Position numbers and translations under genes: made by a program
NCBI GenBank assembly: GCA_030706385.1
Contig: JAUZOQ010000035.1
Coordinates: forward strand, 1 to 32,751
Length of the DNA stretch: 32,751 bases
Direction of reading: 5' to 3'
Origin: Bacteroidota bacterium
GTDB taxonomy: Bacteria > Bacteroidota > Ignavibacteria > Palsa-1295
Notes under the pieces: model-generated
The model's database searches: none
The model's input: the letters and a program-made list of their open reading frames with translations, nothing else
What the model was told of the DNA's origin: nothing
Part shown: positions 5,192-29,778 of the stretch, one piece after another
Layout: every line of letters starts with the position of its first letter
Numbering within the stretch: position 1 is the first letter of the stretch

Positions 5192-5340
5192 AATTTGGTA
5201 GAAGGTCTCCTCTGGTAGATTTAACGAGGAAGCGGGGTGGGATGTTCCAAAGTTGAGCGCGAATTAAGGGATGAAAATATTGTGAATTGATGTAACTAAT
5301 CAGAATTTGATTGGTTATTAGCAATACGAAGGTAAATGGT

Positions 5341-7413
5341 ATGAAATGCCTGGTCTATAGCCTGATTATTCTTGCTTTTGTACTCGGTCAAATATTGACT
5401 GCACAAGCACAATGGTTGCCTACAAATGGTCCCTACTACGGTGCTGTGACCACATTCATGAAGCATAAGGGTATTATCTACGCAACTTCAACGGGATTGA
5501 TATCGAGTTCGTCCGACGAAGGCAAAAATTGGAGAATATCAAGTACTGGAATACCCAATAGTAATATGACAAATATCTGTTCCATCGGAGATACTTTCTT
5601 CGTGGGAACATATCGCGGCGGTGTATACCGCTCAATCGATGCCGGAATGCATTGGGAGCCTTCGAACAAGGGCTTGAGCGATAATAATATTGTCTATCTC
5701 GACTTGACTGGCAATACCGTTTATGCAAATACTTTTGACAGTGGACTTTTCTGTTCAAAGGACTTTGGTAACAACTGGACTCGGCCTGATACCACGAAAA
5801 TTCCCTTCTCGATCATCACTGCTACTGCAACCTTCGAAAGCACTATCTATGTAGGCAGCTATCGCAATGCATATCGATCGAGTGATGGCGGTGATAGCTG
5901 GACAAACATTAGCCAAGCTCTTGTTGGCAAAGTAACAGGATTTGCCAAGATAGGCGGCGTAGTATACTGCAGTGCCAATAGTGAAGGAACGACAGGTGGG
6001 GAAATATACTCTTCAAATGACGAAGGTAACCATTGGACTCATCTTTGGGGCGATCCAGGAACAGTCGGCATAAATACAATCATCGCTTTCGAGAACTCTT
6101 TAATAGCAGCAAGTAGCGGACATGGTGTGCTGATCTCCTACGATAGCGGCTTATCATGGAAGGAAGTTAATGATGGTTTGAGAAACAAGAACATCTACAC
6201 GATTAATGATCTTGACAGCACTCTATTTGCAGCTACCTTGGAAGGTGGATTTGCTTCAACGGACAAAGGCATGACGTGGTTAGATATTAACAACGGATTA
6301 CTATCCACACAAGCTTTTTCTCTGGCGAATATTGATAACACACTTTTTGCTGCTACAGGAGTAATCTCAACTTCGAGAGACCTTGGCCTTACCTGGGCAA
6401 CCACGACACAAATTGATCAAACCGGCACCGGAGTAAACCAAATTATTGCATTCGATAAGTCCATCTTTGTATCAAATAGAGAAGGTAAGACTTTCCGTTC
6501 AACTGATAATGGAGAAAACTGGACCCTTTTTGCTGTCGGGGGAGCGGGGGTTTATCTTTCACTCTTTGATCTACAAGGGAAATCGCTTATTGCTGAAGCC
6601 GGAGATCTATTTTCTACTACAGACCTTGGGAATACATGGGAAAAATTAGGTTCAATCGCAGGAAATGCATACGCATTCGGTTCAATAGGAAATAATCTGG
6701 TCGCTAGTACATATAGCAGAACTACGTATCATTCTACGGATAATGGAAAAAATTGGACAGAAGTAAACATCGCATCGAAGAATATTCAAGTTACATGCTT
6801 TGCTCGATTTGGGAATAGAATCTTTGCCGGCACCTTTGGTGAAGGAATATATTATTCACTCGATAGTGGTGCGACATGGTTACCGAATAATTATGGGCTG
6901 GACGGAAAGGTGATTCAGAAATTGAGAGTTTTTAATAACTCTGTTTTTATCTGTTGTGAAAATGGCGTATTTGTTTCACTTGATAGTGGCAACCGATGGA
7001 TTTCTATTGACGAAGGGTTAATCAATACAGATGCATATGATATTGCGGCAATTGGCAATGAGCTTTTTGTCGGTCTCTATGGTGCTAGTGTATGGCACCG
7101 TCCATTTACCCAACTGAGCGTTGGTGATCAACCTCTGCGCATCGAGAATCGCCCGGTCGCAAGTCAAAATTATCCAAACCCGTTCAACCGAACGACAATT
7201 ATTTCATTCGTTCTCCCATCACCTGGGACCGTATCTCTGAAAATAATAGATCCTCTAGGAAAAGAAGCCGGCTCACCGCTATCCGAGCAAAATTTATGCG
7301 CAGGATATCATGAAATTCGTTGGGATGCAAACGGACTTCCGGACGGAGTATATTATTATCACTTAATGAGCGGATCCCTCAACGAAACGAAGAAGATCGT
7401 ATTGATACGGTGA
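5341..7413 (+). CDS. Secreted Asp-box (BNR) beta-propeller with T9SS-type sorting domain, copy 1
   Basis: A 690-residue exported protein. The ATG at 5341 gives a clean signal peptide (MKCLVYSLIILAFVLG..., cleavage near AQAQ) and a mature start QWLPTNGPY; the in-frame TTG at 5311 is less likely. About 13 Asp-box motifs (S-x-D-x-G-x-x-W, for example STDNGENW, SLDSGATW) recur every ~40-50 residues, as in sialidase/sortilin-type propellers. No sialidase Arg triad is evident. The last ~75 residues match the Por/T9SS type A domain (NYPNPFN, then GVYYYHLMSG, then KKIVLIR), so surface attachment or secretion is expected. Substrate unknown. By eye it is more AT-rich than its neighbours. Confidence 0.9.
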   Translation: MKCLVYSLIILAFVLGQILTAQAQWLPTNGPYYGAVTTFMKHKGIIYATSTGLISSSSDEGKNWRISSTGIPNSNMTNICSIGDTFFVGTYRGGVYRSIDAGMHWEPSNKGLSDNNIVYLDLTGNTVYANTFDSGLFCSKDFGNNWTRPDTTKIPFSIITATATFESTIYVGSYRNAYRSSDGGDSWTNISQALVGKVTGFAKIGGVVYCSANSEGTTGGEIYSSNDEGNHWTHLWGDPGTVGINTIIAFENSLIAASSGHGVLISYDSGLSWKEVNDGLRNKNIYTINDLDSTLFAATLEGGFASTDKGMTWLDINNGLLSTQAFSLANIDNTLFAATGVISTSRDLGLTWATTTQIDQTGTGVNQIIAFDKSIFVSNREGKTFRSTDNGENWTLFAVGGAGVYLSLFDLQGKSLIAEAGDLFSTTDLGNTWEKLGSIAGNAYAFGSIGNNLVASTYSRTTYHSTDNGKNWTEVNIASKNIQVTCFARFGNRIFAGTFGEGIYYSLDSGATWLPNNYGLDGKVIQKLRVFNNSVFICCENGVFVSLDSGNRWISIDEGLINTDAYDIAAIGNELFVGLYGASVWHRPFTQLSVGDQPLRIENRPVASQNYPNPFNRTTIISFVLPSPGTVSLKIIDPLGKEAGSPLSEQNLCAGYHEIRWDANGLPDGVYYYHLMSGSLNETKKIVLIR
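7319..7361 (+). repeat. 43-bp exact repeat in the sorting-domain tail, copy A
   Basis: These bases are identical to 9466-9508 in the next gene. The wider tails 7303-7413 and 9450-9560 match at 103 of 111 positions, while sequence immediately upstream has clearly diverged. This suggests gene conversion or recent exchange of the tail. Confidence 0.9.
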
Positions 7414-7508
7414 GGTTTTCCGCTCATTATTGAAAGCATCAACTTATTGTCCTAATTCTGTAACTTTCGGCATGCCCATCAGTTCTAGGAATACATAATC
7501 ATTTTTCC

Positions 7509-9560
7509 ATGAACAAGTATTCACTTCGATGCGCAGTTATTGCCTTCCTCCTCACTAGCTTGGGCTCTGCATCTGCTCAATGGCTTCCGACAAACGGCCC
7601 GTACGGCGGACCTGCCGGAGTTATTGGCAGCATCGATACTGCTGTTCTCGTTTCAGCAGGGGTGGGAGGCCACGTATACCGATCCACGAATGACGGAACA
7701 TCGTGGACGGTTATCCCCTCCCTTGTCGGCACTCAAGTCTCGGATTTCGCAACGAGCGGTAGTACGATCTTCGCCGGTGCAAATCCGAAATGGCTGCTCA
7801 AATCTATGGATGAAGGTCTTTCATGGACTCCGACGAATTTCGGCTCGACAACGCTTTGGATCACGACGATCGCCGTCAGTGGCAATACAATTTTTGTCGG
7901 AGCCGATAGTGCGCTAATGCGTTCGACGGACAATGGGAACACGTGGACATGGCTAAGAAAGAATCCATCGGATAACGACAATTACTATCAAGACATTGTT
8001 CTTTCCGGGAATACTGTGTATCTCGCCACATCGCGGATCTCGCGATCTACAGATAATGGAGTGAACTGGACGATCGACTCGAGCCAGGATTTCACTTATC
8101 CATATTCATTACTTGTCGACGGAGATTCTTTGTATTGCGCTACCTATTCATCCGGCATTTTCCGGACTAAGCTGAATGAAGATCACTGGATTCAATGCAG
8201 TGCAGGTTTGCCGGAGCATTACAGGTATTATTCGCATTCATTATGCAAACAAGGGAATTATCTTTTTTTTGCTTTAGGAGACTACGGCGTCTATCGGTCT
8301 TCGGACAATGGTAATCACTGGGCCTCTGCGAACAACGGCCTTACCGATTCGTCCGTGTATTATCTCGGCGCAAACGGAAACAACCTCTTTGCCACAACTC
8401 ATCGAGGAATATTTCGTTCGATCGATAATGGCAGCTCCTGGTCGCTTTTGAATTCAGGTATAATGGAGAATGAAGTCGATGCTTTGTCCTCTGTCGGAAA
8501 CGATCTTTTCGCCGGAACATGGACTTCCGGAGTCCAACGCTCGAGCGATGAGGGCAAGACTTGGCTTCCTTCAGGCATGAATCGGGAAAGAATTGTTTGC
8601 TTCGGAGCTGATAACGATACGCTCTATGCTGGAACCGCGGATGGAATTTTCAGAACGAGTGATCACGGAAATTCATGGAAGACTTTAGGACTCAAGTCAA
8701 GTTTCCGCGCAATCATCGCAAAAGATCACTATGTTATTACCGGTTCTGACAACTTCGGTGGTATTCATCGTTCGAGTGATGGAGGTGGAACGTGGGAATC
8801 GATTCTGAGCGGGATCGATTCGACGGTGTATTGTTTCGCATCGAAAGGTGATGCACTATTTGCCGGTACTCGACGCGGAGTTTTTGTTTCGCTTGATGAC
8901 GGCCGGACGTGGATGAATGCGAGCACCGGGCTGAGCAAAGAAATCTATGCGCTTGCCATGAGCAATGATACTCTTTTTGCCGCCACTGCGACTGAGGGAG
9001 TATTCTTCACGTCTGATGAAGGTGCGAGCTGGACTCCATACGGCACCACTCTGGCAAACACGAATATTCGCGCTTTGCAGACGGATAAGTACTTACTTGT
9101 TGGCACATTCGGTGGCGGAGTTTTTCTTGGAGCAAGTCAGCAAACTCCGTGGGTTGAATTTAATGGCGGATTAGGGTCGATGTTTGTCAATGCATTCGTC
9201 GCAAAAGATAGTATGATCTTTGCTGCTACTTCGCGAGGAGTCTGGAAACTTCCACGCGCACAAGAAAGCGGAGTGAGCGGCACTGTGATTAATAACGGCC
9301 TATCGCTCGATCAGAATTATCCCAATCCCTCCTCAGGCCATACAATGATCTCTTTCGATCTTCCCGAATATTCTTCCGTTACACTCTTGATTACCGATGC
9401 TCTCGGCAAACATGTTTGTACACTTCTCGACGAAGAAAAACTCTCTTCAGGACATCACGAAATTTGTTGGGATGCAAACGGACTTCCGGACGGAGTATAT
9501 TATTATCAGTTAATGAGCGGATCCCTCAACGAAACAAAGAAGATCGTGTTGGTGCGGTGA
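7509..9560 (+). CDS. Secreted Asp-box (BNR) beta-propeller with T9SS-type sorting domain, copy 2
   Basis: A 683-residue paralogue of the preceding gene. The signal peptide is MNKYSLRCAVIAFLLTSL..., cleaved near ASAQ, and the mature protein starts QWLPTNGPYGG, as in copy 1. About eleven to twelve Asp-box motifs are visible (SMDEGLSW, STDNGNTW, SSDEGKTW, TSDEGASW), so it should fold as one or two beta-propellers. The C-terminal sorting domain has NYPNPSS, GVYYYQLMSG and KKIVLVR. The pair is separated by 95 bases without a clear terminator. The body differs from copy 1 throughout, and only the final ~110 bp are nearly identical. The function of the propeller is unknown: binding or glycan recognition is possible, and catalysis is not supported. 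Confidence 0.9.
   Translation: MNKYSLRCAVIAFLLTSLGSASAQWLPTNGPYGGPAGVIGSIDTAVLVSAGVGGHVYRSTNDGTSWTVIPSLVGTQVSDFATSGSTIFAGANPKWLLKSMDEGLSWTPTNFGSTTLWITTIAVSGNTIFVGADSALMRSTDNGNTWTWLRKNPSDNDNYYQDIVLSGNTVYLATSRISRSTDNGVNWTIDSSQDFTYPYSLLVDGDSLYCATYSSGIFRTKLNEDHWIQCSAGLPEHYRYYSHSLCKQGNYLFFALGDYGVYRSSDNGNHWASANNGLTDSSVYYLGANGNNLFATTHRGIFRSIDNGSSWSLLNSGIMENEVDALSSVGNDLFAGTWTSGVQRSSDEGKTWLPSGMNRERIVCFGADNDTLYAGTADGIFRTSDHGNSWKTLGLKSSFRAIIAKDHYVITGSDNFGGIHRSSDGGGTWESILSGIDSTVYCFASKGDALFAGTRRGVFVSLDDGRTWMNASTGLSKEIYALAMSNDTLFAATATEGVFFTSDEGASWTPYGTTLANTNIRALQTDKYLLVGTFGGGVFLGASQQTPWVEFNGGLGSMFVNAFVAKDSMIFAATSRGVWKLPRAQESGVSGTVINNGLSLDQNYPNPSSGHTMISFDLPEYSSVTLLITDALGKHVCTLLDEEKLSSGHHEICWDANGLPDGVYYYQLMSGSLNETKKIVLVR
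9466..9508 (+). repeat. 43-bp exact repeat in the sorting-domain tail, copy B
   Basis: Identical to 7319-7361 in the upstream paralogue; see that entry. Confidence 0.9.
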
Positions 9561-12816: not shown

Positions 12817-14331
12817 ATGGTGAGACGGGTTCTTCTTCTGGCCGCCTTTTTTGCGCTGGCAATCGGTCTCTATCGCAACGGTCTCCATATCCCGTACTAT
12901 GACGATGATTATCAGGAAGTCTTCACCACTCCGCATGAAACCCTGACGCATGCATTCGTTATTTCGAATCCGTTCAATCATTTTTATCGTCCCTTCGAAA
13001 CGGCAATTCTTTCAGCTATTCAGTTTCATTGGAATTGGGATACGTTTCCGCTAAGGCTGGTTCATCTCCTTTTGCATGCAGCCGGTGTATTGCTTGTTTT
13101 TCATATGCTTCGCACATGGAAAGTATCACTCGTTGCGAGTGCGATTGCTTCCGTATTCATGCTTGCCTCGCAGATGAGCGTCTATGCCATGGCGAGTAAT
13201 AATACCGTTTCGCAACTGCTCGGAGCATTCTTTTCCGCTCTATCGATTTGGATGCTGTATCGATATCTTTCTGTGGCAACTGAGTCGCGAAGCCGATGGA
13301 ATATGATGGTAAGCCTTCTCTTCTTTTTTCTTGCACTTCTTTCGAAGGAGACGAGTGCCTCGCTTCTACTCTCTCTTCCGTTACTCGCCTTTGTATTTCA
13401 GGATAGAAAAAAAAGCTTTGCAGGGCGTCTGAAGAAGGTAGTTATTTTCTCATTGCCGTATTTCGTATTATTTGTCATCTATTGGTGTCTGAGGGCTAAC
13501 TCCGGCGCATCTGTTCCGGATGCGAACGGACCGATCACAGCATACCACTTCGATCTGGGCAGCAATGTTGTTCGTAATGTGGGATTATTCATCGGGCAGA
13601 CTTTCCTTCCACTATCGACCGTGACGGTTCTCCGGTATTTTTATCTTCATGATATCGCTGCCATTATTTTGGCAGTAGTATTTACCTTGCTTTTTGCTAC
13701 CATTCTCCTCTACGGACTGTGGAAATCGCCTCGAAGGAATTTTGCAATGGTGATCTTTTGCTTTATTTTTTTTAGTTGGCTTCCGATGATCTTCATTACG
13801 CATATTACGGAATGCTATATGTATAATTCCGTGATCCTCGTCTCTGTTCTATTCGGAATTGCAGCGGAGTATTATTGGAGGCTTGCGTCGGAGCGGCGAT
13901 CATTCCTCAGCATAGGAGCCCTCAGCATTTTTTCAGTGGTCGTAGTCACCAATGCCCTGGGCACTGATGAAAAATGTTCGGATATGGCGGAACAAGGGCG
14001 TCGTGCAGAGATTCTCTTTCCACAAATTGTGAGCGCAGCAAAGAAGATGCCTGCGGGATGCTCAATGATTCTCACGAATCTGAAGGATGCGCAATTTTCG
14101 CAATCACGATATCTTATGCCTTGCTTCAATGTGCTGAATCATTCCGATTCGCTTGTTCACTACTATTCCGGGCGGGCAGATATTATTCTCTCACGAGGAG
14201 ATTTAGAAGATCTCACATTGCTTCCACCCGGACGTAGTGGAATCGTCTTCGGCTGCGATCCTAAGACTTTGCGCGTTCAGCCGGTAGCATCGAGGCCTGA
14301 CTCGCTTCTACACTTATTTTCCGAGAGATGA
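12817..14331 (+). CDS. GT-C-type membrane glycosyltransferase, copy 1
   Basis: 504 residues, with about ten to twelve hydrophobic segments and a ~110-residue C-terminal non-membrane domain. An acidic motif YYDDDYQ after the first helix (~25-31) sits where GT-C enzymes of the PMT/TMTC type carry the catalytic Asp. Further shared marks are HFYRPFE, the LVHLLLHAAGVLLVFH helix and LLSKETSASL, as in TMTC/PMT-like transferases. Expected role: transfer of a sugar from a polyprenyl-phosphate donor on the periplasmic side; acceptor unknown. First of three tandem paralogues; its stop overlaps the next start (ATGA). Confidence 0.75.
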   Translation: MVRRVLLLAAFFALAIGLYRNGLHIPYYDDDYQEVFTTPHETLTHAFVISNPFNHFYRPFETAILSAIQFHWNWDTFPLRLVHLLLHAAGVLLVFHMLRTWKVSLVASAIASVFMLASQMSVYAMASNNTVSQLLGAFFSALSIWMLYRYLSVATESRSRWNMMVSLLFFFLALLSKETSASLLLSLPLLAFVFQDRKKSFAGRLKKVVIFSLPYFVLFVIYWCLRANSGASVPDANGPITAYHFDLGSNVVRNVGLFIGQTFLPLSTVTVLRYFYLHDIAAIILAVVFTLLFATILLYGLWKSPRRNFAMVIFCFIFFSWLPMIFITHITECYMYNSVILVSVLFGIAAEYYWRLASERRSFLSIGALSIFSVVVVTNALGTDEKCSDMAEQGRRAEILFPQIVSAAKKMPAGCSMILTNLKDAQFSQSRYLMPCFNVLNHSDSLVHYYSGRADIILSRGDLEDLTLLPPGRSGIVFGCDPKTLRVQPVASRPDSLLHLFSER

Positions 14332-15797
14332 AGCGGACTCTTTCATATCTGTCGGCATTTATCGGCTTCATTGTTCTTGCCGCCTTCGTGTATAGAAACG
14401 GATTTCATATTCCGTATTTCTACGACGATTACGAGCATGTATTCACTCATCCTGGGTTCGATCTCTTCGGCAGCTTTCTTCAGGCCAATGGCTACGCACA
14501 TTTTTACAGACCGTTGGAAAAGATCCTACTTTCGGTCGTTCAAATGCAATGGGGCTGGGATACATTTCCGATCCGCATACTCCATATCCTGCTCCATGCC
14601 TCCGGAGCATTGCTCGTTTTTCATGCGCTTAGGACATGGAAGATGAATACGATCAGCGCTGCAGCGGGAGCGATCTTCATGATCGTCTCGCAGCTCTGTG
14701 TCTATGCAGTGGCAAGTAATGATTCGCAGTCGCAGCTCGAAGGCGCATTATTTTCTGCGCTTGCACTTTGGCTCCTTTATCGATATACGAATCAAGCCCA
14801 CCACCATGTCTGGAAGTATGTGGCAAGCGTCGGATGCTTCTTGCTTGCACTTTTCTCGAAAGAAACGAGTGCAGGACTTTTGATTGCCATTCCATTTGTA
14901 ATCAATGCTCAGGGAGATTCTCGTCAACCGATTTCCAAGCGCATTCAGAAGATGCTCTTGCTCCTTACTCCATACGCAATCTGTTTCCTGATCTATTGGG
15001 TTCTCAGGCTGAATGCCGGAGGCTCGACAGCAGCATTCGGTGCTACGAGTTACTCGTTTCATTTCGGGCTTAATGTATTCAGAAATCTCGGATTATTTTT
15101 CGTGCAGGCAATTCTTCCGGTTTCAAGTCTTGCAGCGGCTCGAGCAGTTTATTATAGAGAGTACGCGCTGCTTACAGTAATGCTTTTGTATACGGGCCTC
15201 TTCGCATACTTCTTTATTTGCGGGTTGCTTCGATCTCCGAGACGGAATCTAGTGATTGGTCTCTCGGTGCTTGCGTTTTGCAGTTGGTGTCCTGCTCTCT
15301 TTCTCGGATGGATGAATGAGTTGTATCCGTATAATTCGATCCCGATCATTGCCGCACTCTTTGGAATCTCTGCAGAGTATTATCTATCCTCCAGGAAAAC
15401 TCCCTTCATTCGATCGGCTGCGATGCTATTGTTTCTGGGTGTCCTAATAACCAATGCGATCGGAACAAACGAAAAGACAATGGGAATGTCGGAGTTGGGA
15501 AGCCGTGCAGAAGCATTTCTTCCTCAAGTTATTTCATCGGCGAAAGAACTTCCTGAACATGAGACATTGTATCTTGTGAATCCCGACGGACCTACTTTTG
15601 AGTACTCTCAATTTTCCATGCGCGGTTTTCGCGTGGTGGCAGGCTGCGACAGCCTGGTTCGATATTATGCCACGCGTCCGGATTTCCAATATTTCATCAG
15701 CGATAGCACAAACTGCGCAGCAGAGATGAAACATTCGCCGGGACTTGCATTCACCTATGATCCGGCAACATTACAAATGTACCGGATGAAGTTCTGA
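14328..15797 (+). CDS. GT-C-type membrane glycosyltransferase, copy 2
   Basis: 489 residues, paralogous to the genes on both sides. The acidic loop reads FYDDYEH. HFYRPLEK, the WGWDTFPIRILHILLHASGALLVFH stretch (here split across several motif blocks) and LFSKETSAGL are conserved, as is the C-terminal extracytoplasmic domain. The ATG overlaps the stop of copy 1 by four bases, so the two are translationally coupled. Substrate not predictable. The first acidic residue of the copy 1 motif is absent, but the D-D pair remains. Confidence 0.75.
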   Translation: MKRTLSYLSAFIGFIVLAAFVYRNGFHIPYFYDDYEHVFTHPGFDLFGSFLQANGYAHFYRPLEKILLSVVQMQWGWDTFPIRILHILLHASGALLVFHALRTWKMNTISAAAGAIFMIVSQLCVYAVASNDSQSQLEGALFSALALWLLYRYTNQAHHHVWKYVASVGCFLLALFSKETSAGLLIAIPFVINAQGDSRQPISKRIQKMLLLLTPYAICFLIYWVLRLNAGGSTAAFGATSYSFHFGLNVFRNLGLFFVQAILPVSSLAAARAVYYREYALLTVMLLYTGLFAYFFICGLLRSPRRNLVIGLSVLAFCSWCPALFLGWMNELYPYNSIPIIAALFGISAEYYLSSRKTPFIRSAAMLLFLGVLITNAIGTNEKTMGMSELGSRAEAFLPQVISSAKELPEHETLYLVNPDGPTFEYSQFSMRGFRVVAGCDSLVRYYATRPDFQYFISDSTNCAAEMKHSPGLAFTYDPATLQMYRMKF

Positions 15798-15876
15798 TCA
15801 CCCGATCCTTGCACCGGATGTACCGAACGAGACGATATTTATTATCTGTTCCAAAGCACACTAACTGTAACCATAA

Positions 15877-17385
15877 TTGATCTCAAAGCCAGTCATAGAA
15901 AGGGTTCTGCTTTTTGTCGGTCTTGTTGCACTCTCGCTTCTAGTTTATAGAAGCGGCCTCCATATTCCGTATTATGCCGATGACTACCAGCGTCTTTTCA
16001 CGAATCCCGATGAGGCAATGCGGCACGCATTCACAAAGGCAAATCCTTTTGATGCTTCTTATCGGCCACTTGAAGCATTTTCGTTAGGTTTTATTCAGAG
16101 CCATTGGGGCTGGGATACATTTCCGTTTCGCCTCTTGAATTTGCTCTTTCATGCGGCCGGAGCGCTTTTGGTTTTTCATGCGCTTAGGTATTGGAAGATC
16201 AGTACGATTACAGCATTAAGGGCAGCCGTATTTGTTATCATTTTGCAGATGGGCGCTGCTGCAATTCTGGGGAATGATACGCAATCGCAAGTCACCGGTG
16301 CTTTTTTTTCTGCGCTGTCGCTGTGGCTGTTATATCGCAGTCTGGAATCCGGATCGTTGCAGCTATGGAGATACGCCGGCAGTATTATTTTCTTTTTTCT
16401 TGCCCTTCTCTCGAAAGAAACCAGCAGCGGACTTGCTCTCGGTGTTGCTTTTCTCTGCTATGCCTTCTCAAAGAAGGAGAATGTTTCCGGTAAGATTGGC
16501 GATTCGATCATCAAGCTCGTGCCCTATGGAATTTGCGTGCTTGCGTATTGGCTGCTTCGGAGCAATGCAGGAGCGATCAGTCCAACACTAGGAAATGCAA
16601 ATCTTTCACTGAATTTAGGCGCTAATATTCCGATAAATATCGGGCTCTTCATGATCCAGAGCGTTCTTCCGATTTCGAGTATGGCAGTTGTAAAGGCTTT
16701 TCAATATCGGGATCATCTTCTCCTCGCTCTGATATTTGTCTTGACATCGGCCTTTACATTAGCAATGTTTTTCGGAGCAATTCGATCCGGAAGGAAGAAA
16801 CTCGCACTGGGTCTTGTCGTCTTGCTATTCTTCAGTTGGTTTCCGGCAATCTTGCTCAACCATATCGGAGAGCTTTATGCCTATAACTCCATCTTTCTTA
16901 TTGGAGCGCTATTCGGAATAGCTTTTGAGTACTATCGCACTTCGTTTTCAAAACGTCCGGTCATCCTCGGAGTTTCGTTGCTCATGATCATCGTTGCATT
17001 CACAAATTATTCGGGTGTCGAGGAAAAAGCTTCCTCAATGAAGGAACAGGGCGACCGTGCGGCAATATTTCTTCCCCAACTCATTTCCTTGGCGCAGAAA
17101 ATGCCGCAAAATGAGTGGATGTATCTTGCCGGACCGAAGGATACATCATTCTATTACTCGATGTTCAGAATTCAAGGATTCAGAGTATCGGCACTCTCCG
17201 ATAGCGTAGTCCGTTTCTTTTCCGGCAGGCCGGATGTCAGAGTTTATGTAGCCGATAGTGCCTCCTGCGCAAAATTGGCCAAGACGTATCCTGGAATCCT
17301 CTTCACGTTCGACCCTGCAGACTTCCGGATCTACCCGATGCCGGAGTCCGGACCAGAAAACAACAAATTGAAAATGATCCGATAA
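15877..17385 (+). CDS. GT-C-type membrane glycosyltransferase, copy 3
   Basis: 502 residues, same family as copies 1 and 2. The acidic loop is YYADDYQ, followed by SYRPLEAF, RLLNLLFHAAGALLVFH and LLSKETSSGL, then a C-terminal extracytoplasmic domain. The start must be TTG at 15877-15879: a stop (TAA, 15868-15870) precedes it in frame and the next ATG is ~45 codons in, beyond the first helix. A 79-base spacer separates it from copy 2, and no terminator is evident there. Tandem duplication and divergence is the simplest history. Confidence 0.75.
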   Translation: MISKPVIERVLLFVGLVALSLLVYRSGLHIPYYADDYQRLFTNPDEAMRHAFTKANPFDASYRPLEAFSLGFIQSHWGWDTFPFRLLNLLFHAAGALLVFHALRYWKISTITALRAAVFVIILQMGAAAILGNDTQSQVTGAFFSALSLWLLYRSLESGSLQLWRYAGSIIFFFLALLSKETSSGLALGVAFLCYAFSKKENVSGKIGDSIIKLVPYGICVLAYWLLRSNAGAISPTLGNANLSLNLGANIPINIGLFMIQSVLPISSMAVVKAFQYRDHLLLALIFVLTSAFTLAMFFGAIRSGRKKLALGLVVLLFFSWFPAILLNHIGELYAYNSIFLIGALFGIAFEYYRTSFSKRPVILGVSLLMIIVAFTNYSGVEEKASSMKEQGDRAAIFLPQLISLAQKMPQNEWMYLAGPKDTSFYYSMFRIQGFRVSALSDSVVRFFSGRPDVRVYVADSASCAKLAKTYPGILFTFDPADFRIYPMPESGPENNKLKMIR

Positions 17386-25245: not shown

Positions 25246-25911
25246 ATGAAAGGAACACCGTTAACCGAGCAAACCTATAATTACATTGTCGAAAATTTTG
25301 CCGTCGAAGAAGCCATGCTGCTGCAGCTCATGCAGAAGCGTGCCGAAGAAGCCGGGATTCCGATGATCATGATATCCGAAGAGCAAGCGAAATTCCTCGG
25401 CTTCTTCCTGAAAGCTATTCGAGCAAAGCGTGTTCTTGACATCGGAACACTGTTCGGCTATAGTGCTGCAATCATGGCGAAAGCGATCGGCACGGATGGC
25501 GAAGTCGTCACGCTCGAATTCGAACCTCTTCATGCTAACGCTGCCCGCGCGAATTTTAAGCATTTGGGTTTGCAGAACATCTCTCTTCTTCAGGGGCCGG
25601 CGATCGATCACATGAAGACAATGAAGGACGGAATTTTTGATTTCATTATGATCGATGCCGATAAACCGAATTATTCGCTCTACCTGAAAGAATCGCTTCG
25701 CCTCATCAAAGATGGAGGAGTGATCGCCGGAGATAATGCTCTTGCCTGGGGAAAGATCGCCAATATGCATCTGCCCGTTTACGATCCCGATTATGTCAGC
25801 GCAACAGCAATGCAGCAGTTCAATAGAGAATTTGCTGCGGATAAATCCATGTTCAGTTGTATCGTCCCTGTAGGTGACGGATTGGCAATGGGGTACGTTA
25901 AGAAGTCATAA
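25246..25911 (+). CDS. SAM-dependent O-methyltransferase (catechol-OMT-like family)
   Basis: 221 residues, normal length for the bacterial O-methyltransferase family 3 (caffeoyl-CoA/catechol type). Motif I is VLDIGTLFGYSAAIMA near residue 63-78, the acidic residue after beta-2 is in VVTLEFEP, and the metal/catalytic motif is IMIDADKPNY near 134-143. Further family blocks are GGVIAGDNALAWGK and FSCIVPVGDGLAMGYVKK at the C-terminus. It likely methylates a small hydroxylated compound with a divalent metal; substrate unknown. Followed after 19 bases by the TraB-like gene. Confidence 0.92.
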   Translation: MKGTPLTEQTYNYIVENFAVEEAMLLQLMQKRAEEAGIPMIMISEEQAKFLGFFLKAIRAKRVLDIGTLFGYSAAIMAKAIGTDGEVVTLEFEPLHANAARANFKHLGLQNISLLQGPAIDHMKTMKDGIFDFIMIDADKPNYSLYLKESLRLIKDGGVIAGDNALAWGKIANMHLPVYDPDYVSATAMQQFNREFAADKSMFSCIVPVGDGLAMGYVKKS

Positions 25912-25930
25912 CATCTTTTACAAAAGCTAC

Positions 25931-26824
25931 ATGAATCTTTCGAATCCTAAAGGGGTGCGGCTGCTTCTCCCTACACTCATTCTCCTTCTTTTTTCTACTG
26001 CATTCGCGCATCCGAAATCCTCTCTCCTTTGGGAAATCTCAGGTCATGGATTGAAGACTCCTTCCTATCTCTATGGCACCGTGCATTCGTTTGATGAGCG
26101 TGCGTTCCGCTTTGCGAAGCTTGCCGAATCCTATATTGCTAAATGCGAAGCCTTCGGCATGGAGATCAATATGTCGAATTTAGAAGGAGTTGACATCTTC
26201 GGAATGATGAAATATATCACGATGCCGGGAGATACGACACTCGATATGTTAATGACGCCTCAGCAATATGCGAAGCTCGACGCATATGTTACCGATACTC
26301 TGCATCTCTCTTTGGTCATGTTCAAATCGATCAAGCCGATGTTTCTTCTTGGAATGCAGGAAGGAATGAGCCTGTCAGCAGATTCATCCGATTTCCTCGA
26401 TGAGTATTTCATGAAGTTTGCCGAGAAGCATAAGAAGGAAATCATCGGTATCGAAACGATCGAAGAGCAAGTGAGAGCGCTCGATCTTGTTCCTCTTAAG
26501 GAACAGGCAAAAATGGTTATGGATATGATAGAACCCGATACAACGAAGCCCGAGGCCTCGATCGAAGATCTTGTCGATATCTATGCCCGTGGCGATCTCG
26601 ATGCGATCTATTCGTACTATAAAAAAGAAGATCTTTCCAATACCTTTAATGCTGCTCTTATCACCGATCGCAATCACCGAATGGCAGATCGTATCGATTC
26701 GATCATGCATAAGAAGAGTCTATTCGTAGCCATCGGCGCCTTGCATCTTCCGGGCGATGAAGGGCTAATCAACTTACTCCGCAAAAAAGGATATGCTCTC
26801 ACACCTCTGTGGAAAAAAGATTAG
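25931..26824 (+). CDS. TraB/GumN-family protein (Tiki-like putative metalloprotease)
   Basis: 297 residues from the ATG at 25931, which yields a good signal peptide (MNLSNPKGVRLLLPTLILLLF..., cleavage after AFA). The in-frame start at 25874 overlaps the O-methyltransferase and lacks the signal. N-terminal motif YLYGTVHSFDERAF carries the family G-T-x-H, and the C-terminal VAIGALHLPGDEGL gives the second conserved G-x-x-H-L. Between them are MLGMQEGMS-like and IGIETIEEQV blocks, the latter containing the family E-T. Relatives include Tiki proteases. Expected in the periplasm; substrate unknown. Confidence 0.88.
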   Translation: MNLSNPKGVRLLLPTLILLLFSTAFAHPKSSLLWEISGHGLKTPSYLYGTVHSFDERAFRFAKLAESYIAKCEAFGMEINMSNLEGVDIFGMMKYITMPGDTTLDMLMTPQQYAKLDAYVTDTLHLSLVMFKSIKPMFLLGMQEGMSLSADSSDFLDEYFMKFAEKHKKEIIGIETIEEQVRALDLVPLKEQAKMVMDMIEPDTTKPEASIEDLVDIYARGDLDAIYSYYKKEDLSNTFNAALITDRNHRMADRIDSIMHKKSLFVAIGALHLPGDEGLINLLRKKGYALTPLWKKD

Positions 26825-26892: not shown

Positions 26893-27846
26893 ATGCTTAA
26901 TTGGATTTGGCTTGGACTTATCATCATCGCTATTGCTGTCGCGACAGGACGTGATATTTCCGAGCTATCGCAGGACCGGTTCCGAAACGGGAAAGCACTA
27001 CCGCTGACCGTCCTCGCAACCAAACAAGTAAGCCCCGATCATTATAGTAGTGAAGTGATCCTTCTCCGTTCGGATCTTACGACATTCTACGATCCTTCCG
27101 ATATTCGCACGCTTCACTCCGATACTCTTCACCTTACCGTCGAACAGACTTATGCCGGAGTTGCTTCATTCGCCCTGCCGTCGGATGCGCTCAAAGTATG
27201 GCAGGATATGGCGGCAGCACAGGGCGATGAAAAACGAGTGACCGGTATTGCGCATAATTCGCAGACACCTGGTGCGTTGCTCTTCACTCCTGATCCAGTG
27301 AAATTCCGAGTGCTTGCAAAGGTCGCCAACGACGGCTTGCTCAAGAGCGCCGATACAGCTGTCACCATTATCCTGGGTCTGATCGGAGTGATGGCTCTCT
27401 GGCTCGGTATTATGAAAATTGCCGAGGCTGCCGGACTCATTACTCTTCTCGCAAAGCTTGCGAAGCCTTTGATGGTCCGGCTCTTTCCGGAAGTACCGCC
27501 GGAGCATCCGGCAATGGGCGCAATGCTTTCGAACATGGCTGCAAATTTCCTGGGGCTATCGAACGCAGCGACGCCGCTGGGATTGAAAGCAATGGAAGAA
27601 TTGAATAAGCTCAATCCGAATGCCGGAACAGCAACTAACGCCATGTGTATGTTTCTGACGATCAATACGAGTGCCATTACGCTCATACCGGCCACAGTTA
27701 TCGCTATCAGACTCTCACTTGGCTCGAAGAATCCTTCGGAGATCATTATTCCGACGTTCATTGCCACAATTATCGCTCTCATCTGCGGCGTGATGTTCAA
27801 TAAATTCATTCAGCGTTTTTTCCCCATCAAAGAAGCGAATGATTGA
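26893..27846 (+). CDS. SpmA-like membrane protein with an extracytoplasmic insert
   Basis: 317 residues. The N-terminal helix (MLNWIWLGLIIIAIAVA) and residues ~140-317 align with Bacillus SpmA (about 196 residues): LWLGIMKIAEAAGL, PPEHPAMGAMLSNMAANF, GLSNAATPLGLKAMEEL and NTSAITLIPATVIAIR. This is the nucleoside-recognition (gate) domain. Between the first helix and the core lies an extra ~110-residue block predicted to be outside the membrane. SpmA and SpmB affect spore core dehydration in Firmicutes, but homologues are widespread in non-sporulators with unknown role. Overlaps spmB by 8 bases. Confidence 0.9.
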   Translation: MLNWIWLGLIIIAIAVATGRDISELSQDRFRNGKALPLTVLATKQVSPDHYSSEVILLRSDLTTFYDPSDIRTLHSDTLHLTVEQTYAGVASFALPSDALKVWQDMAAAQGDEKRVTGIAHNSQTPGALLFTPDPVKFRVLAKVANDGLLKSADTAVTIILGLIGVMALWLGIMKIAEAAGLITLLAKLAKPLMVRLFPEVPPEHPAMGAMLSNMAANFLGLSNAATPLGLKAMEELNKLNPNAGTATNAMCMFLTINTSAITLIPATVIAIRLSLGSKNPSEIIIPTFIATIIALICGVMFNKFIQRFFPIKEAND

Positions 27847-28372
27847 ACTGCTCAAGATACTATCGACGCTTGCCGTACCGCTGGTGATTCTGATCATCGT
27901 CGGAGTGGGTGCATTCAAGAAAGTCAAGGTCTATGAAGAATTTGTCGAAGGAGCGAAAGAAGGATTTACTACAGCTGTTCGTATCATTCCGTACCTTGTA
28001 GCAATGCTCTGTGCGATCGGAATGTTTCGTGCAAGCGGAGCGATGGATTTTCTGACGAGCGCTTTGAGCCCGATCACCGGAGCTATCGGTATTCCGAGCG
28101 AAGTATTTCCGCTTGCCGTGATCCGCAATCTTTCCGGCTCCGGCTCTCTTGGCCTGATGACCGATCTGGCAAAAACATACGGAGCAGATTCGTTCATCGG
28201 AAGGCTTTCGGCCATCATGATGGGAAGCCATGAGACGACGTTCTATGTGCTGGCAGTTTATTTTGGCTCCGTTGGAGTCAAGAAAGCCCGGCATGCACCG
28301 TTATCGGGAATCTTTGCCGATATAATCAGTGTCATAGTAAGTGTAATTCTCGCAAGAGCAATGTTTTTATGA
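27839..28372 (+). CDS. SpmB-like membrane protein
   Basis: 177 residues, the standard SpmB length, with four to five helices. Conserved blocks are EGAKEGFTTAVRIIPYLVAML, RASGAMDFL, IPSEVFPLAVIRNLSGSGSLG and IMMGSHETTFYVLAVYFGSVG, all family hallmarks of the nucleoside-recognition gate domain. It probably forms a membrane unit with the preceding SpmA-like protein; transport of a small molecule or ion is suspected for the family but unproven. Its stop overlaps the next start (ATGA), so the outer-membrane-type gene is coupled to it. Confidence 0.92.
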   Translation: MIELLKILSTLAVPLVILIIVGVGAFKKVKVYEEFVEGAKEGFTTAVRIIPYLVAMLCAIGMFRASGAMDFLTSALSPITGAIGIPSEVFPLAVIRNLSGSGSLGLMTDLAKTYGADSFIGRLSAIMMGSHETTFYVLAVYFGSVGVKKARHAPLSGIFADIISVIVSVILARAMFL

Positions 28373-29778
28373 TGAAGAAATATCTTTTCCCGATTCTTCT
28401 TCTGGTGTGCATTGTTCGCTCAGGCCCGGCGCAGAACCTCTCTGACCGTGCACAACCCTCTTCGGACCCGAGCCAAAAATATCAAGGCGTTGGTGGCGGG
28501 CTCGGAGCAAGTATCTTCCAGGGCAAGCCCTACCTCCTCTTGAATGCTGCAACCCAATTCGAACTGTGGAAAACTCTTGGTATCGGCATCGATGGCAATA
28601 TTCGCATTGGCAGCGACGGAAAATTCCGTAAAGAGGATTTTGACGATTGGTACGATGCACTCCGATGGATCAGCTATATCCGCATCGGTCATCCCGGCGA
28701 AGATCTTTATGCTCGCATCGGAGGACTCAATAACGTCACGCTCGGGCACGGTACGATCGTCGATAATTATTCGAATAATTCTTCCTACGACGATCGCCGC
28801 ATCGGCCTTATCGGCCGGATCGATATGGGAGCCTTCGGCGGCGATGCGTTTACTTCCGATGTGCTTGTCAATAAAGGCCTCGTTGCCGGGCGCGGATTCG
28901 TGCGGCCTTTCCAATTCGTGCCGCTTTTAGGAAAGAACTGGTTCTTCTCGAATATCGAACTTGGCGGAACGGCATCATACGACTTCGATACGAATGCCGT
29001 TCGCATCATTCCGAATCATCCGCCGTACGTTCAGGTCTTTCATGTAAAGAATGGAGACGAAGTTCGCGATTCGATCGTCATTCTCAAGGATTCGGCACGA
29101 GTCCCTTCTCCGCTTACCGTCTACGGCGTCGATGCATCGGTAACGGTGTGGAAGAGCGATAATCTCGAAGGCAAGGTCTACGGTGACTATGTCGATATCG
29201 TGCATTTCAATCAGGGCTTCATGTTCGGCGCACGCTCAAGCTTCCTCCTCGATTCTTCAACTTTCGTTGACCTTCGGTTGGAGCGATATCTTTTCAAGAA
29301 TCATTTCCTTCCGAATTATTACAACTCCTTCTACGAACGAGAGAGATTCAACGATGATATCGATACGCTGAGCTATATCACGAAAGCTACTCGGCTTGCC
29401 GATACATCGAGCGGTGAGGGAAACGGATTCAAGTTCGGAAGCTTCTTCAATTTCAGCGATAAGGTGCAGGTCGGAGTTACGTATGCGCATCTTGATAATC
29501 TCCGGCATGCAGATCTTCTGCAGATATCGCTGACCTTCCCGAAGATCTGGTGGAAATTTTTCGGAGCTATCAACTACATGAAAAGCAACATCGACGGACC
29601 GAAAGATTATATCGGATTCAACGAAAACACGCTAGCCTCGGCGCGGCTCTCATTCCAGCCATACAAATTCCTCGTGTTTAATCTTCTCATGCGGTGGACC
29701 TTTACGCGCGATGCGAATAATCACGTTTCGACGCAATCGATCATTGAGCCGAAGGCCGTTTTTATTGCACGATTCTAA
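28369..29778 (+). CDS. Probable outer-membrane beta-barrel protein
   Basis: 469 residues. Signal peptide MMKKYLFPILLLVCIVRSG..., cleavage near PAQ. The body is rich in alternating amphipathic strands with aromatic ends (GGGLGASIFQG, LYARIGGLNNVTLG, FMFGARSSFLLD, KVQVGVTYAHLDNL) and the last residue is Phe (FIARF), the usual barrel-insertion end. I do not recognise a named family; a porin-like or assembly role is possible. Coupled to spmB by a 4-base overlap, so it probably serves the same process. Start may be either of two adjacent ATGs. Confidence 0.75.
   Translation: MMKKYLFPILLLVCIVRSGPAQNLSDRAQPSSDPSQKYQGVGGGLGASIFQGKPYLLLNAATQFELWKTLGIGIDGNIRIGSDGKFRKEDFDDWYDALRWISYIRIGHPGEDLYARIGGLNNVTLGHGTIVDNYSNNSSYDDRRIGLIGRIDMGAFGGDAFTSDVLVNKGLVAGRGFVRPFQFVPLLGKNWFFSNIELGGTASYDFDTNAVRIIPNHPPYVQVFHVKNGDEVRDSIVILKDSARVPSPLTVYGVDASVTVWKSDNLEGKVYGDYVDIVHFNQGFMFGARSSFLLDSSTFVDLRLERYLFKNHFLPNYYNSFYERERFNDDIDTLSYITKATRLADTSSGEGNGFKFGSFFNFSDKVQVGVTYAHLDNLRHADLLQISLTFPKIWWKFFGAINYMKSNIDGPKDYIGFNENTLASARLSFQPYKFLVFNLLMRWTFTRDANNHVSTQSIIEPKAVFIARF

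Follow-up and report, generated by a model that had tools for sequence, protein, structure and literature searches.

Why should a gene for an outer-membrane-type protein follow directly upon spmA and spmB, a widespread pair of genes without known biochemical activity for their products? The question is raised by a 32,751-nt stretch of DNA from a Bacteroidota bacterium of the Ignavibacteria (contig JAUZOQ010000035.1, positions 1-32,751; assembly GCA_030706385.1), referred to here as the window. Within it, spmA (positions 26,893-27,846), spmB (27,839-28,372) and a third gene (28,369-29,778), whose product is predicted to be an outer-membrane β-barrel, form one run on the + strand. An initial annotation had taken the products for an inner-membrane gate and an outer-membrane channel that work as one envelope-spanning system. 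We found that the gene order is conserved across five families of the class and that its parts also occur separately. As a tentative answer, held at slightly less than even confidence, we propose that this conserved, lineage-restricted operon specifies separable, consecutive membrane steps of one pathway that takes up or handles a small substrate, for which peptides or amino acids are candidates. In the available text of a 2012 source, spmA and spmB apparently had neither activity data nor structural characterization (PMC3533761), and among the matches listed from the open-licence literature, as far as their retrieved text goes, no spmAB-barrel operon was described, consistent with the earlier remark that no system of this make-up was known.

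Conservation of the spmA-spmB-barrel order

Gene order was surveyed in 100 genomes, comprising the window's own and its relatives, which were sorted into families under anonymous labels (f1, f2, etc.). The barrel gene was found in 43 of the 100 by a single-sequence search and in 45 by a profile, the two profile-only additions being a 22-residue fragment (G066) and a distant match (G086; E 6e-26); SpmB was present in 69. In 26 of the 43 barrel genomes, spmB lay directly upstream of the barrel gene on the same strand (at most 835 nt away), and these cases span five families (f1, f3, f8, f16 and f17). Where an unfused SpmB and the barrel coexisted, the two genes were adjacent on one strand in 26 of 28 genomes, the exceptions being G005, in which they are 1646 nt apart, and G020, in which they are on separate contigs; the locus of G006 ends at a contig end. 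Counted by presence, 40 genomes had both proteins, five the barrel only, 29 SpmB only and 26 neither (Fisher p 9e-5, in a test that ignores kinship and takes both the fragment in G066 and the distant match in G086 as barrels). Loci in named genomes (L-numbers) were taken as the best 80 of 175 relatives found with the barrel alignment. SpmB was encoded directly upstream in 32 of these 80, among them Candidatus Kryptonium thompsonii and many metagenome-assembled genomes (MAGs) of Ignavibacteria or Bacteroidetes; these 32 include one locus with a partial SpmB (L063) and one with a gap of N (L047). The 48 uncoupled loci came from Melioribacteraceae, Ignavibacteriaceae and other MAGs, and four of them have less than 700 nt of upstream sequence.

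The genes upstream of the trio were far less stable than the trio itself. In a comparison of 38 loci, picked for having the trio and read with a simple ORF script that may call spurious neighbors, only one of 418 cross-clade pairs shared a homologous first gene upstream of spmA, and two shared a homologue among the first three. Because this flank has turned over, the order has been kept beyond background synteny. On a 97-row barrel tree, made by a quick method without bootstrap, the label "adjacent" required four changes (two of them forced by well-supported branches) as compared with a mean of 31.2 after shuffling. The pattern reads as one old coupling that was long kept and seldom broken. 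In the neighborhood survey, the barrel gene and spmAB are thus associated by more than chance in one part of the class.

In the window itself, the first 8 nt of spmB lie within spmA, and the stop codon of spmB (TGA, 28,370-28,372) overlaps the first ATG of the barrel gene (28,369-28,371), forming an ATGA overlap at 28,369-28,372 on the + strand that can be read directly from the sequence. The initial annotation was thus correct that the spmB stop runs into the start of a gene for a 469-residue protein; its interval, 27,839-29,778, covered spmB and this third gene and omitted spmA. A second in-frame ATG of the barrel gene lies at 28,372, where the match to the family profile begins, and translation may in truth start there. 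The overlap of 4 nt is a local feature: between the end of the SpmB match and the beginning of the barrel match there are 3-6 nt within the genus of the window and 9-835 nt elsewhere. By single-sequence search the barrel gene is single copy in the window's genome, and a scan for sigma-70 promoters and terminators gave no excess over shuffled sequence.

The predicted barrel and its ImpL63 relatives

An AlphaFold2 model of the third protein, built from an alignment of the window protein and 78 homologues, had a mean pLDDT of 86.4 and a pTM of 0.83 and consisted mostly of strand, with 22 strands of at least six residues within residues 40-468. The protein is thus predicted with confidence to be a large, closed β-barrel of the outer-membrane type, and the inference made at the outset from its signal peptide and strands was upheld by this structure prediction. 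By eye, its start resembles a signal peptide and it ends in Phe (IARF); many homologues carry a few residues beyond the last aromatic. Foldseek matches of the model included BtuB and AlgE, and among the matches listed in a fold comparison were OprD/OpdK-type channels, AlgE and Wzi, with Z of about 13-14. In the same list, the mitochondrial proteins VDAC and Tom40 scored equal to or above these outer-membrane barrels, and the matches therefore indicate general barrel likeness, not family membership. No PorV-type fold was among the 50 matches listed. The barrel profile had no match among PDB sequences, none of the 79 family members matched a Pfam model at E 0.001, NCBIfam at the same threshold returned no model except ImpL63, and the barrel gene was not found in a plasmid collection. 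Two highly conserved stretches, at residues ~119-145 and ~310-326, fall largely outside the strands of the model and may line or constrict a channel.

The NCBIfam model for ImpL63 (NF047543) matched all 79 aligned barrel proteins, with a best E of 1.5e-28. The window protein scored 58.3 bits (E 5.6e-16) and did not reach the equivalog cut-off of 1000 bits; scanned more widely, the model had matches in 11 of the 61 phylum genomes and in 0 of 14 control genomes, with none over the cut-off. By sequence comparison, the window barrel is homologous to ImpL63 and yet falls outside its equivalog. In the available text of the cited studies of Leptospira, ImpL63 is an inner-membrane marker that was undetected in Triton X-114 outer-membrane preparations (PMC2780356), showed relatively low biotinylation in intact cells (PMC2698987) and has served as a loading control on blots (PMC5100919). 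The retrieved text of PMC2698987 also states that OmpL36 and OmpL37 were mostly detergent-insoluble and that several leptospiral outer-membrane proteins were recovered with the protoplasmic-cylinder fraction. Because other leptospiral outer-membrane proteins partition in this way, the published data are compatible with an ImpL63 that resides in the outer membrane as a barrel and is attached to the cylinder. If ImpL63 is truly such a barrel, fractionation controls that rely on it need checking. We consider it very improbable that the inner-membrane behavior of ImpL63 reflects a tether instead of true residence, with the extracytoplasmic domain of SpmA docking an ImpL63-like barrel into a trans-envelope conduit.

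The Gate proteins and their surroundings

SpmA (317 aa; Pfam Gate, E 5.5e-13, 49.7 bits) and SpmB (177 aa; E 2.4e-15, 57.3 bits) of the window both exceed the Gate cut-off of 29.6 bits, and they are the sole Gate matches at E 0.001 in their assembly, which is 96% complete. The pair was found both as two adjacent genes, with the 8-nt overlap in the window, and as single SpmA-SpmB chains of ~540 residues in the related families f10 and f11 (L127 4805-6436, L128 5583-7214 and L156-L165). A natural fusion beside a barrel gene appeared to be present in L047 and was rejected, since the open frame crosses assembly N, also at the join. Of the columns in a 17-sequence alignment of SpmB, 69 are invariant, and the window SpmB matched NCBIfam PRK10519, a "hypothetical protein" model, below threshold (36.1 vs. 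111 bits); none of 28 SpmA sequences matched NCBIfam. Profile searches of the PDB with SpmB and SpmA gave no credible match, the one hit for SpmA being a chance match to a ribosomal protein (E 0.52).

In its structure model, SpmA has an N-terminal helix followed by an extra domain of ~100 residues (36-133), presumably periplasmic, before the Gate core. Between residues 31 and 130, ten-residue blocks had a pLDDT of 81-90, the membrane part was poorly predicted (overall mean 71.1; pTM 0.48), and the best rows of a fold search with this model were weak (Foldseek E 0.07; Z 5.3). Judged by length, nearly all of the 39 SpmA genes examined encode the extra domain, with or without a barrel in the genome; it is absent from G033 and from three f21 genomes, whose barrel sits away from spmAB. 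The domain was accordingly rejected as a barrel-specific dock, and because its distribution ignores the presence of the barrel, it lends no special support to docking.

A gene for a TraB/PrgY/GumN-like protein (25,874-26,824, + strand; Pfam 9.1e-58) precedes spmA in the window. It had been put forward as a possible third part of the system. Among the loci searched by tblastn, it preceded spmA in the window, in the congeneric G001 and in G005 alone, and it was found in 0 of the 80 named loci; the suggestion was therefore dropped and the gene is not counted in the unit. Other neighbors distinguish coupled from uncoupled loci: with flanks of up to 8 kb and the gene counted anywhere in the locus, a proline dehydrogenase gene was present in 23 of 32 coupled loci vs. 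1 of 48 uncoupled ones, and an OPT transporter gene in 20 of 32 vs. 1 of 48. In G024 and G074 the order is spmA-spmB-proline dehydrogenase-OPT with no barrel gene between, and in G033 the dehydrogenase gene follows spmB, with a gap before OPT and no barrel. More generally, genes for proline dehydrogenase and an OPT oligopeptide transporter often come after spmAB, whether or not the barrel is there (e.g., L040 9614-12676 and similar loci; L139 and L150). These arrangements suggest that in this class spmAB is tied to the handling of peptides or amino acids, the barrel being an added outer-membrane step.

Uncoupled barrel genes are often preceded by a type IX secretion gene for a C25 sortase resembling PorU2 (28 of the best 80 loci, cluster C2; e.g., L076 2579-7894), an assignment made from one cluster representative that scored below the NCBIfam PorU2 cut-off. 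Further uncoupled neighbors, from their first residues, are what we take to be bshA, malQ and clpC. Elsewhere in the window, the ORF list shows three similar membrane proteins of ~500 residues in tandem (12,817-17,385), seemingly paralogues by eye, and two similar tandem proteins of ~700 residues (5,311-9,560) whose like C-terminal ends resemble, again by eye, type IX sorting tails.

Explanations for the coupling

In the reading that we tentatively prefer, SpmA and SpmB, both members of the Gate family, would form a transporter-like pair in the inner membrane, and the predicted barrel would probably act as a substrate channel. The barrel would admit a small substrate to the periplasm and SpmAB would handle it at the inner membrane, with co-transcription, as judged from the gene order, balancing the two steps. 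Because proline dehydrogenase and OPT genes are so often close by, peptides or amino acids would be the best guess for the substrate, and the conserved barrel operon in this setting provides a concrete lead on the substrate of a widespread protein pair. SpmAB and the barrel would need no contact, and each could work apart in other lineages.

A number of observations weigh against this reading. In an even, phylum-wide draw, the barrel was found in 32 of 148 genomes (six by weak matches, E 1e-11 to 1e-17), and its gene was adjacent to spmB in seven of the 32 and away from it, or in a genome without SpmB, in 25. Seven adjacent and six non-adjacent cases were already known; of the other 19 genomes, 13 had SpmB, never beside the barrel. 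In the remaining six the SpmB search gave no match despite a strong barrel match (E 3e-134 to 4e-143), and conversely the barrel profile had no match in 29 of the 69 SpmB-bearing relatives, including 5 of the 12 SpmB genomes of the window's own family f1, one of them only 67% complete. Among genomes that combine the barrel with a fused SpmAB chain (500 residues or more), the genes were adjacent in 0 of 11, and three further fused-SpmAB genomes from the phylum draw likewise had a non-adjacent barrel. In the window, spmAB has neither proline dehydrogenase nor OPT next to it, and both are likewise missing from f8, f16 and several further coupled loci. The downstream flank is a weaker synteny control than the upstream one, the first gene beyond the barrel being homologous in 49 of 367 cross-clade pairs and any of the first three in 90 of 367. 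Within the window's family a TPR gene adjoins the barrel gene in G001, G002, G005 and G006; plain synteny is therefore enough to account for the order there, and it is the between-family comparison that carries the argument. Given the PorU2-like neighbor in other lineages, the function of the barrel may be unrelated to SpmAB. Finally, we know of no transport activity for SpmAB or for this barrel.

Since the parts occur apart, SpmAB and the barrel do not make up an obligate machine spanning the envelope. The outer-membrane-type barrel is a protein in its own right, and its coupling to spmAB covers part of its range. Of the single envelope-spanning system first proposed, the barrel and the conserved order stand; the joint working is unsupported, given the barrel without SpmB in the six genomes and SpmB without the barrel in 29 of 69. 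The proposal was to fall if relatives kept the gene mostly away from spmAB, and across the phylum they do (25 of 32), outside the coupled group.

The simplest rival is that an independent, house-keeping barrel was captured by the promoter of spmAB in a single ancestor and has been kept there since, with no pathway in common. The barrels without a SpmB match, in the six strong-match genomes and, among more distant matches in the class, in G027, G054, G062 and G086, are in keeping with this, as are the other neighbors, such as PorU2-like genes, that the barrel keeps in other lineages and the clustering of adjacency on the tree in four changes. Mere grouping sits less well with an order that outlived the turnover of its upstream flank in five families, and with adjacency in 26 of the 28 genomes in which the barrel meets an unfused SpmB; we regard it as possible but doubtful. 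A role in cell-wall or outer-membrane homeostasis, instead of nutrient uptake, is unlikely in our view. It would agree with the company of spmAB in Bacillus, where the pair sits with dacB, a cell-wall carboxypeptidase gene, and the neighboring proline dehydrogenase and OPT genes point to metabolism instead. It would also agree with a report on Shewanella vesiculosa in which, in the available text, a transposon insertion ahead of a "spore maturation" gene with a Gate domain led to more and smaller membrane vesicles (PMC12096838); that insertion is also upstream of rsmF, a separate disruption of which is listed in the methods, and the change in vesicles is not assigned to the Gate gene (PMC12096838).

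A physical, trans-envelope complex of SpmAB and the barrel is possible but unsupported. As a conduit in which the extracytoplasmic domain of SpmA docks the barrel and so joins both membranes, we judge it improbable. Two points speak for it: the confidently folded domain of ~100 residues between the first helix and the Gate core, and the use of the Leptospira homologue ImpL63, in the text available, as an inner-membrane reference protein (PMC2780356, PMC2698987). Against it, the domain also occurs where no barrel match was found (e.g., f2, f5 and G024), it is missing from the three f21 genomes whose barrel lies away from spmAB, and 100 residues are short for the periplasm.

Our preferred reading, two separable steps encoded in one operon, can be set beside known systems at each of its parts. 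SpmA and SpmB of Bacillus and YjiG and YjiH of Escherichia coli (Gate, PF07670) are likewise two neighboring, small Gate-domain membrane proteins. The window differs from these in the additional ~100-residue domain of SpmA, which the Bacillus and E. coli proteins presumably lack, and in the outer-membrane-type gene that comes after the pair; the gene contexts of the Bacillus and E. coli pairs are, we assume, different. The OprD-type channels, AlgE and Wzi have a barrel shape in common with the predicted window protein, whereas identity in the fold alignments was 6-13% and there was no sequence match. For ImpL63 of Leptospira, in contrast, the model matches all 79 aligned barrel proteins, and yet ImpL63 has been described as an inner-membrane protein, while the barrel family here is predicted to lie in the outer membrane.

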